Origin: Poseidonibacter ostreae
GTDB taxonomy: Bacteria > Campylobacterota > Campylobacteria > Campylobacterales > Arcobacteraceae
DNA length: 51,278 nt
Direction of reading: 5' to 3'
Assembly (NCBI RefSeq): GCF_009208075.1
Contig: NZ_WFKJ01000018.1
Span: 1 to 51,278 of the forward strand
Position numbers and translations under genes: made by a program. The notes beneath the pieces are model-generated. The model worked only from the letters and a program-made list of their open reading frames with translations, was not told the DNA's origin and made no database searches. This document shows positions 13,546-16,947 of the stretch, in pieces (the stretch's first letter is position 1; the number at the start of each line of letters is the position of its first letter).

Positions 13546-14307
13546 ATGAAAATACAAAAAGTTAAAAAATACGATTTATTCAAAAACAAAGAAATTTTAA
13601 AGCTAGAAAAATTAAAAAATCAAGGTGTTTGTAATATTTTATATAAAATACAAACACCTAAAAAAAACTATATTCTAAGAGTTTTTAAATATACTCATAC
13701 AAATAAACAATCAAGAAAAAATGAAATCAAGATACAAAATAAAGCTTATAAAAAAGGTTTGGCTGCAAAAGTCTATATTCATGATAAGAATAAGTCTTTA
13801 ATGATTTGTGATTTTATAAAAGGTGGGCATAAAAAAAGACTAAAGAAAAAAGATATAAAAACTTTAGTAAAAACTCTTAAAAAACTACATAATATAAAAA
13901 CTAAAAATAAGCCATATAAAATAAAAAACGATTTTATAAACTATAAAAAAATATTAAAAGATAAAAAATCAAAACAGATTATCAAAGCATCTTTAAAAGA
14001 ATTCAAAAAAATCAAGAAATATAAGTTTGAGAAAGTTTTATGCCATCATGATTTAAATAAAGAGAATATTTTGTTTAATAAAAACAAGGTCTTATTTATA
14101 GATTGGGAGTTTGCATGTGTAAATGATAGATTTTTTGATCTTGCAAATATTTGTATTGAGTTTGACTTAGACAAAAAACAAGAAGAAAGACTTTTAAAAG
14201 AGTATTTAAAAAAAGTCAGAAAATCTCATATTAGAAAGTTAACTTCATATAAAATAGTATATAAAAACCTTTGGAGTTTATGGTTTAAAGCTTTAGAACA
14301 AAGATAA
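13546..14307 (+). CDS. APH/choline-kinase-like phosphotransferase
   Basis: A 253-aa, very lysine-rich kinase-fold protein. The catalytic loop is HHDLNKEN (H167, D169, N174) and the metal-binding Asp is D186 in IDWEFA, the arrangement of aminoglycoside phosphotransferases, choline/ethanolamine kinases and thiamine kinase. The FDLANIC segment after the DWE motif favours the choline/LicA/thiamine-kinase branch over antibiotic resistance. The substrate is unknown. The gene is 13 bases after gpx and its 3' end overlaps the convergent SRAP gene by 15 bases. Confidence 0.8.
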   Translation: MKIQKVKKYDLFKNKEILKLEKLKNQGVCNILYKIQTPKKNYILRVFKYTHTNKQSRKNEIKIQNKAYKKGLAAKVYIHDKNKSLMICDFIKGGHKKRLKKKDIKTLVKTLKKLHNIKTKNKPYKIKNDFINYKKILKDKKSKQIIKASLKEFKKIKKYKFEKVLCHHDLNKENILFNKNKVLFIDWEFACVNDRFFDLANICIEFDLDKKQEERLLKEYLKKVRKSHIRKLTSYKIVYKNLWSLWFKALEQR

Positions 14308-15006
14308 TTGACCTATTTCTTTTTTCTCTTCTTTTTTTTCAGTTAATTTTCTAGAAACTTTTTTAATACAAATAACCTCATCAAATAAAACTTTATTTAC
14401 TTCATTTGTAACTTCATAGATATCTATTTTTTCATTTGGGTATATTTTAAATAAACTATTTACTTCTTTTATATCATCACTCTTTAACCAAGTAGCAAAA
14501 TCTTTTTTTTCTAAAACTACGGGCATACGATGGTGTATTTTTCCTAATTTTTCATTTGCATCACAAGTAATTAATGCAATTGTAACTATCTTCATATTTA
14601 ATTGTTTATCAAAATATTCATCCCAAATACCTGCAAGCGCTAAATAATCATTTTTTATATCACTTACAAGATATGGCGTTTTCTCTTTATTATCTTTTTC
14701 CCACTCGTAAAAACCATTTATAGGAATAATACAACGTCTATATCTAAAGGAGTCTCTAAAAGTTTTCTTTTCATAAATACTTTCACTACGAGCATTAATG
14801 TTCATAGAAGCCTTAGAACTTGCCCAAGAAGGCAAATAACCAAAGTGAGTATACAAATAGTTACCATTGTTTAATAAAGCAGGTATAGGAGTTGTAGGAG
14901 GAATATTATATCTAGGGTTTAGCTCTTGTATCATATCATTTTGTATTAGACTTGAAGCATCAATTTTAAATGCTTTATCATCATAAATACTTAATCGTCC
15001 GGGCAT
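14293..15006 (-). CDS. SRAP (HMCES/YedK) family protein with Pro instead of Cys2
   Basis: A 237-aa member of the SRAP family, which shields abasic sites in single-stranded DNA by a covalent bond through Cys2. I place the start at 15006: an AAGAAG site and a TATACT box (15032-15037) lie just upstream, and starting there gives the family's N-terminal G-R-L/F. The protein then begins MPGRLS. Other active-site positions are kept: N71 in NARSE, E101 in GFYEW, H158 in HHRMP and the PSWA motif. Only the nucleophilic Cys is missing. The second codon is CCC, two changes from a Cys codon, so a single read error is unlikely. A C-terminal Lys/Glu tail ends in QLSLF, which may be a clamp-binding peptide. 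Confidence 0.88.
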   Translation of the reverse strand: MPGRLSIYDDKAFKIDASSLIQNDMIQELNPRYNIPPTTPIPALLNNGNYLYTHFGYLPSWASSKASMNINARSESIYEKKTFRDSFRYRRCIIPINGFYEWEKDNKEKTPYLVSDIKNDYLALAGIWDEYFDKQLNMKIVTIALITCDANEKLGKIHHRMPVVLEKKDFATWLKSDDIKEVNSLFKIYPNEKIDIYEVTNEVNKVLFDEVICIKKVSRKLTEKKEEKKEIGQLSLF

Positions 15007-15084
15007 ATTAATCTTCTTATATTTTTTTTGAAGTATATAATAATAAAATTTAAATATCTTCATTTAGAAAAAGGTTTATTTTGG

Positions 15085-15096: not shown

Positions 15097-16947
15097 ATGC
15101 AATTAGAAGAGAAACTAAAACAACTACCAAACGATGCTGGCGTTTATCAATACTTCGATAAAGATGGAAGATTACTATATATTGGAAAAGCGAAAGTACT
15201 AAAAAATAGAGTTAAATCTTATTTTAAATTTACTCCAAAACTATTGCCATCTGATAAATTAGGTCCTAGAATTTATAGAATGATTAGCCAAACAGCTTGG
15301 ATTGAATGGATTGTTGTACCAAATGAGCATGATGCACTAATCTTAGAAAATTCTCTTATTAAACAACTAAAACCAAAATACAATATTTTACTTCGTGATG
15401 ATAAAACCTATCCATATATTTATATTGATTACACTGAATTATTTCCAAGACTTGAAATTACAAGAAAAGTTTATAAAAACAAAAATATAAAATATTTTGG
15501 TCCCTACTCTACAGGTGCTAGAGATATGCTTGATAGTATTTATGAGATAGTTCCTCTAGTTCAAAAAAAATCCTGTATAAAAGGAAAAGAAGCTTGTCTT
15601 TTTCATCAAATAAAAAGATGTCATGCACCATGTGAAGGTAAAATATCAACAGCTGAGTATTCAAAGATAGTTGATACTGCAATTGATTATATCTATAATA
15701 AATCTAAATTAATTTCAAAACTTCAAGAAAAGATGATGGAGTATTCAGAAGATTTCAGATTTGAAGAAGCTATGAAACTAAGAGATAGAATAAAAACAAT
15801 AGAAAAATCTCAAATTAAATCTGGTGTAGATTTAGCAACAAACGAAAATATTGACCTTTTTGCAATTAAAGCCTCAAATAAAAAAGCTGTAGTTGTAAGA
15901 ATGTTTATAAGAGATGGAAAGCTAACCTCTTCATCTTATGATTTTATAAAAATCAACTTTTTAGATGAAGATTTGAATATAGATTTAGATGAAGCCTATA
16001 AAAGAGCTATAATAAACTATTATGACAATGAAATTCCTGTATTGCCAAAAGAAGTGTTAACTGGAATTGAACTTGAAGATAAAGAGGATATTGAAGAGTT
16101 TTTATATAATAAATTTTCTAAAAAAATAAAAATTGTACATCCTAAAAAAGATAAGAAAAAAGACTTAGTAAAAATTGCTTTAAATAACTGTGATGAACTT
16201 CTTAGAATTGATTCATCAAGAAATCAAACTACAATATATGATGAACTTAAAAAACTATTCTCACTACAAACTATACCATCAAGAATTGAATCATATGATA
16301 ACTCACATATGATGGGACAAGCAACTGTTGGAGCTATGGTTGTATGGAATGATGAGATAAATGGTTTTGAAAGAAAAGATTTTAGACACTATAACTTAGA
16401 ATCAAAAGATGAATACTCACAAATGAGAGAGATGTTAATAAGAAGAGTTGAAAGTTTTGAAAAAAATCCTGCACCTGATTTATGGGTTATAGATGGAGGT
16501 TCTACTCTTTTAAAATTAGCCTATGATATTGTAAATTCAAGTGGAGTAAATCTTGATGTTATTGCAATTGCAAAAGAGAAAGTTGATGCAAAAGCACATA
16601 GAGCAAAGGGAGCGGCTAAAGATATTGTTCATTATAAAGATGAAAAAGGTGAATATAGAGCTTTAAAACTAGAAACAAGTGATCAAAGATTACAGTTTGT
16701 GCAAAGACAAAGAGATGAAGCTCATAGATTTGTAATAAACTTTCATAAAAAACAAAAAAGAAAAGAAGATAAACAAATCTCACTACTTCAAATCAAAGGA
16801 ATAGGAGAAGCAAAGGTAAAAAAACTTCTTTTATATTTTGGAGAATTTGAAAAAATCAGAAGCGCATCAATAGAAGACTTGAAAGAAGTTTTAAACGAAA
16901 AGGATGCTACTGTTATATCTAATTATTTTAAAGAAAATGAGGATTAA
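15097..16947 (+). CDS. uvrC: Excinuclease ABC subunit C
   Basis: A 616-aa nucleotide-excision repair nuclease of normal length. Domains in order: GIY-YIG nuclease (12-95; GVYQYF and LLYIGKAK) making the 3' incision, a Cys-rich segment (about 168-179, [14 protein letters not shown] and CHAPC), the UVR domain (about 195-232) contacting UvrB, an RNase H-like 5'-incision domain (380-540; [25 protein letters not shown]) and C-terminal helix-hairpin-helix motifs (around 560-612; [16 protein letters not shown]). It starts a likely transcript with alr and the Sel1-repeat gene. Its -10 box lies so close that the mRNA is probably leaderless. It is divergent from the SRAP gene. Confidence 0.97.

Follow-up and report, generated by a model that had tools for sequence, protein, structure and literature searches.

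An SRAP protein with proline in place of the catalytic Cys2 and a putative sliding-clamp-binding tail defines a clade that includes Poseidonibacter ostreae

Human HMCES acts at replication forks and has been reported to bind PCNA. Like the other described SRAP proteins, it carries at position 2 a cysteine that has been called "absolutely conserved" (PMC3765255) and "invariant" (PMC9436759). In E. coli YedK, the abasic sugar is opened by Glu105 and His160; with the help of Glu105, the N-terminal amine attacks to form a Schiff base, which the thiol finally converts into the thiazolidine (PMC9436759). The thiol-free C2A form of YedK gives a borohydride-trapped Schiff base with a rate constant of 1.7 and has a Glu105-dependent lyase activity of 0.05 in the units of the same paper; Schiff base formation is thus fast and elimination slow, and E105Q slows both (PMC9436759). 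In a different fold, the Fpg/Nei enzymes use an N-terminal proline, and in M. smegmatis Nei2 this Pro2 is the essential nucleophile of the AP lyase, P2A and P2C being inactive (PMC11323726).

The window analyzed here, a stretch of 51,278 nucleotides from Poseidonibacter ostreae, encodes an SRAP protein with proline at the position of Cys2 (Table 1), as the original prediction had stated from the letters of the DNA. The ORF is intact and its product begins MPGRLSIYDD. The original prediction had also named an upstream start codon, which would have supplied another second residue, as an outcome that would undo this reading. In the window, the ORF is open upstream as far as an in-frame ATG at 15063, and this candidate was ruled out, as it is unconserved and 31 of the 37 Pro2 loci found in this work have no alternative in-frame ATG, GTG, or TTG between the upstream stop and the start; in L012, L015, L021, and L025, a stop codon immediately precedes the start codon. 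The codon before CCN-GG is ATG in 28 of these loci, TTG in 5, and GTG in 4, and this varied spelling at one fixed position marks that position as the true start, so the start of the SRAP ORF is secure. No second SRAP gene, including one with Cys2, was found in the window's genome, which is rated 100% complete.

Table 1. Features of the Pro2 SRAP gene and its divergent neighbor, in coordinates of the window
Feature	Position	Strand	Remarks
SRAP-fold protein with Pro2	14293..15006	(-)	237 aa plus stop; Pfam PF02586; AF2 mean pLDDT 92.3; VIA-align Z 26-28
Start codon ATG	15004..15006	(-)	ATG, GTG, or TTG at the identical site in relatives
Pro2 codon CCC, position of the SRAP nucleophile Cys2	15001..15003	(-)	Pro in 37/37 clade loci; Cys in all readable others
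His54 codon	14845..14847	(-)	Invariant in the Pro2 clade; elsewhere mostly Arg/Lys; Ser predominant in the closest Cys2 relatives
Asn71 codon (YedK Asn75)	14794..14796	(-)	NARSE; invariant in Pro2 and Cys2 groups
Glu101 codon (YedK Glu105)	14704..14706	(-)	GFYEW; invariant; role from PMC9436759
His158 codon (YedK His160)	14533..14535	(-)	HHRMP; invariant
C-terminal linker, residues 219-232	14311..14352	(-)	pLDDT blocks 58-63; length variable in relatives
C-terminal QLSLF, consensus beta-sliding-clamp-binding motif	14296..14310	(-)	Matches QL[S/D]LF
uvrC, divergent neighbor	15097..16947	(+)	90-bp intergenic region between the two genes

The match to the SRAP family spans the full profile (positions 1-214; E 3.7e-55; 187 bits, with 27.1 as the cut-off), and the Pfam scan of the protein found no other family, the Fpg/Nei profile included. 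The AF2 model, built from an alignment with Cys2 relatives from viral contigs, falls below a pLDDT of 65 only in its final two ten-residue blocks. All significant PDB matches to the model were SRAP proteins, and the closest solved structures were BT_1218 (2F20), HMCES, and YedK, the three to which the Z-scores in Table 1 refer. Structural alignment to YedK (6NUA, 6KCQ), to HMCES, and to the Schiff-base complex of YedK C2A (8D2M) begins at residue 2 with Z about 26 (about 27 for HMCES), and the N-terminus lies at the active site as in YedK. The protein has equivalents of YedK Gly3, Arg4, Asn75, Arg77, Glu79, Glu105, His160, and Arg162, and it shares the RRC, GFYEW, and HHRMP motifs of HMCES, with Pro2 where both of these proteins have Cys2; its identity to YedK is about 22%.

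That the Asn, Glu, and His of the active site are kept had been claimed from the NARSE, GFYEW, and HHRMP motifs, and all three residues are present and align with YedK Asn75, Glu105, and His160. In an alignment of 35 Pro2 and 114 Cys2 rows, Gly3 (nearly), Arg4, Asn71, Glu101, Trp102, His158, Arg160, and Pro162 are common to both groups, and Arg73 is also conserved; the extra viral rows were admitted only with Cys2, so the count of 114/114 Cys2 in this alignment is circular at residue 2. The YedK row of the alignment agrees with the YedK residues in the structure-match output. The protein is an SRAP homologue and a variant of the family, not a canonical cross-linker of the HMCES/YedK type, Cys2 being absent. 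The retention of the catalytic residues, together with the low dN/dS values described below, indicates that the SRAP machinery has been maintained with the exception of the thiol.

The original prediction had asked whether Pro2 is fixed in a clade, and had allowed that Cys2 in all close relatives would point to a sequence error. SRAP genes are patchy in the window's family (30 of 104 genomes), and Pro2 is present in every one of the 29 copies that are readable at the N-terminus, the codon being CCT in 16, CCA in 10, and CCC in 3. Pro2 is not limited to this family, as a second family within the order has SRAP in 15 of 200 genomes: 6 are Cys2 (L034, L219-L223), 8 are Pro2 (L224-L231), and 1 is broken. 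Pro2 is therefore present in 37/37 clade loci, and its occurrence in so many loci with varied synonymous codons rules out a sequencing error. A survey of 397 genomes from the phylum showed SRAP to be rare, and the 3 intact proteins that it found outside the window's family are Cys2. Phyla beyond the window's own were sampled only through viral contigs and plasmids; among 95 distinct SRAPs from elsewhere, nearly all from viral contigs and taken without regard to residue 2, Cys2 is present in 93; of the other two, L094 has a wrongly placed start with MCGR a short way after it, and L107 is truncated at the end of its contig. Five further proteins from the second family and eight from plasmids are all Cys2. 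Cys2 is thus found in 107/107 readable SRAPs outside the Pro2 clade, a count that does not amount to 107 independent observations, as many prophage rows are closely related. No Pro2 protein was seen among the viral-contig SRAPs or the 8 plasmid records, and the plasmid proteins that best matched a Pro2 N-terminus were haloarchaeal, the one examined (Haloplanus rallus, L238) being Cys2.

A tree of 66 sequences unites the 35 Pro2 rows in a single clade (support 100/99), whose stem is long (1.05 changes per column) and which adjoins the Cys2 group of the second family; a single origin of Pro2 within the order is the simplest account of this topology. Between members of the window's family, dN/dS ranged from 0.07 to 0.27 for informative pairs, one nearly identical pair aside, a clear sign of purifying selection on the Pro2 SRAP.

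Several damaged or duplicated copies were also observed. The Pro2 gene of a single-contig genome (L029 in G084, 1501-2073) has lost ~37 residues, HHRMP among them, to an in-frame deletion that brings two NEKL-encoding stretches together, as recombination at short direct repeats would, and is a natural loss-of-function allele. Genome G602 has a broken SRAP copy, and L036 (G241) is a remnant in which an internal deletion has fused the N-terminus (VCGRVDIHD) directly to the DRMP motif. A 99-kb viral contig (IMGVR_UViG_2675903043_000002) carries two SRAP genes, L069 and L086, ~20 kb apart and identical in their first residues.

A second feature, overlooked in the original prediction, is the putative clamp-binding tail. 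The bacterial clamp-binding consensus is QL[S/D]LF or QxxLF, and the C-terminus of B. subtilis PolC is QLSLF (PMC12309361). The Pro2 protein ends in GQLSLF after a linker of low model confidence whose sequence and length vary among relatives, as expected of a tethered peptide. An ending of the form Q..[L/F]F at the extreme C-terminus was found in 33 of 36 distinct clade members against 0.0145 expected from shuffles of the last 30 residues; the three exceptions are L029, with QQSLF followed by EIE, and L002 and L005, which end in SSLFDL and PSLFDL. Among the 95 other SRAPs, there was one such ending (QKNLF, in the archaeal L031) and one chance match near the C-terminus. The window's genome has 79 DNA sites that match Q-L-x-L-F-stop in some frame. 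One of them has TGG in place of a stop; examination of all the others showed that no ORF of 60 codons or more apart from the SRAP gene terminates in QLxLF. Docking on the clamp through this tail is suggested by the short motif, and YedK has no such tail. With respect to HMCES, the motif would fill the role of PCNA binding.

Four of the closest Cys2 relatives, L219, L220, L221, and L222, end in AATLF, AVTLF, PETLF, and RGTLF, a TLF that resembles the clamp motif without its Gln, suggesting that evolution of the tail may predate Pro2. The archaeal protein, from a Thermoplasmata contig (JADBLO010000063.1), is a Cys2 SRAP (MCYR) whose GQKNLF end is like a short clamp- or PCNA-binding tail, possibly an independent archaeal tether. 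In the window, the 3′ end of the SRAP gene overlaps that of a convergent kinase-like gene (13546-14307, plus strand) by 15 bases (14293-14307); the overlap takes in most of the QLSLF codons, and the motif is retained in relatives that do not have this neighbor.

Methionine aminopeptidase tolerates Pro at position 2, and removal of Met1, expected for Met-Pro-Gly, would expose the secondary amine of Pro2. The QLSLF tail would dock on the beta sliding clamp and hold the protein at forks or gaps. There, the retained Glu101 and His158 would open the abasic sugar, and Glu101 would promote attack of the N-terminal amine on C1′, as is established for YedK. The absence of a thiol at residue 2 makes a thiazolidine impossible by established chemistry, and without it the reaction would halt at the iminium, which may either hydrolyze, giving a reversible cap, or pass through an enamine to beta-elimination, giving an AP lyase as in Fpg/Nei. 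The anatomy of the gene, its conservation, and its predicted fold are established, whereas the chemistry and the clamp contact are what we infer from them and from the systems compared.

The full proposal, in which a clamp-bound SRAP variant uses the amine of Pro2 to form an iminium at abasic sites and so makes a reversible link or acts as a lyase instead of forming a thiazolidine, seems to us evenly balanced between right and wrong. Taken separately, covalent iminium formation is somewhat more likely than not, and net lyase activity falls somewhat short of an even chance. Iminium chemistry is favored because YedK C2A forms a Schiff base, Fpg/Nei enzymes use an N-terminal Pro, and the general catalysts are kept. 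YedK C2A resembles the Pro2 protein in having no thiol at residue 2 with the N-terminal amine, Glu, and His retained, and its Schiff base formation and AP lyase activity are the ones proposed for the Pro2 protein; the mutant differs in being engineered and in having a primary amine, whereas the secondary amine of the natural Pro2 protein could form only an iminium. Likewise, Fpg/Nei enzymes such as M. smegmatis Nei2 (PMC11323726) have an N-terminal Pro2 after Met removal, the candidate Schiff-base nucleophile here, but they have an unrelated fold, and the Pro2 protein has no PF01149 match, Gly3 where they have Glu, and no known base-excision pocket. The single origin of the Pro2 clade beside Cys2 kin with the other catalytic residues invariant supports the mechanism, and the dN/dS range argues against decay. 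Against the mechanism count the Gly after Pro, the slow lyase of YedK C2A, and the shortness of the clamp motif. The conservation pattern suggests that the Pro2 clade reacts with abasic sites by a chemistry unlike that of all known SRAP members.

The main rival is a purely binding protein, in which Pro2 SRAPs would hold abasic single-stranded DNA without reacting and serve as clamp-tethered sensors or blockers. Here, Pro2 could have a role in packing or in Met removal, or be favored for its rigidity, and the loss of the hallmark nucleophile side chain with the fold, Arg4, Arg73, and Arg160 kept agrees with such a reader. However, Glu101 and His158, whose YedK counterparts open the ring and, for Glu, also assist the Schiff base, are invariant where a mere binder would be expected to drift, and an exposed N-terminal amine in the YedK C2A pocket does react; we therefore regard the binding-only reading as unlikely, if still a serious competitor.

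More improbable is a stable cap that needs no thiol, in which the Pro2 iminium would be closed by the amide nitrogen of Gly3 into a bicyclic aminal and abasic sites would still be protected. With formaldehyde, an N-terminal Pro does close onto the amide that follows it, and the resulting 5,5-bicyclic aminal withstands scavengers relatively well (PMC9839752); the Pro2 clade has an invariant Gly3, and the protective role would be preserved. In the same work, though, the acetaldehyde adduct was unstable, several other carbonyls gave none, and high pH was used for most reactions (PMC9839752), and Gly3 is equally conserved in Cys2 SRAPs and so marks no special adaptation. An internal residue acting as a substitute nucleophile is a further possible reading of the sequence.

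A degenerate or inactive SRAP, or a sequence error, has in its favor the patchy presence in the family, the L029 allele without HHRMP, and the broken copy in G602, but we consider it very improbable, as every readable clade locus has Pro2 with varied codons, a low dN/dS, an invariant active site, and a secure start; this clade-wide fixation argues strongly against degeneracy. A switch of autopeptidase activity, the first role proposed for SRAP as a thiol autopeptidase (PMC3765255), is hardly credible in a protein whose thiol nucleophile is absent and at loci most of which, with no in-frame start further upstream, encode nothing N-terminal besides Met that could be cleaved off.

The head-to-head arrangement with uvrC described in the original prediction is correct for the window but does not generalize, as a divergent uvrC lies within about 1.5 kb at 16 of 29 loci of the window's family and beside none of the SRAP genes seen in the second family, and adjacency to uvrC as a functional link is accordingly weak. 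Fpg/Nei (PF01149) was absent from 104/104 genomes of the window's family and from 8 Pro2-bearing and 8 Cys2-bearing genomes outside it, in a search that gave matches in 8 of 14 control genomes. This absence covers bearers of Pro2 and Cys2 alike, so a loss of Fpg/Nei that tracks Pro2 was rejected, and we treat the absence as context and not as evidence. The window's genome encodes two HhH-GPD proteins. As a tentative scenario, with the balance tipped slightly against it, an SRAP lineage may have moved from thiazolidine capping by Cys to iminium catalysis by Pro and gained a clamp tether on the same branch, giving a replisome-bound enzyme in bacteria where Fpg/Nei was not detected.

In the open-access literature, subscription papers being outside the scope of the search, we found no report of a Pro2 SRAP, of its biochemistry, or of a clamp-binding bacterial SRAP. 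Cys2 defines the SRAP mechanism, and a clade in which Pro2 is fixed while the rest of the catalytic residues remain amounts to a natural experiment on it; exchange of Cys and Pro in both directions (YedK C2P and P2C in the Pro2 protein) makes the contribution of the thiol directly testable. The clamp-binding tail would link a bacterial SRAP to the replisome, and, should the Pro2 protein prove active, it would be an example of the SRAP pocket working as a lyase with an N-terminal proline or as a reversible cap, in convergence with Fpg/Nei from another fold.
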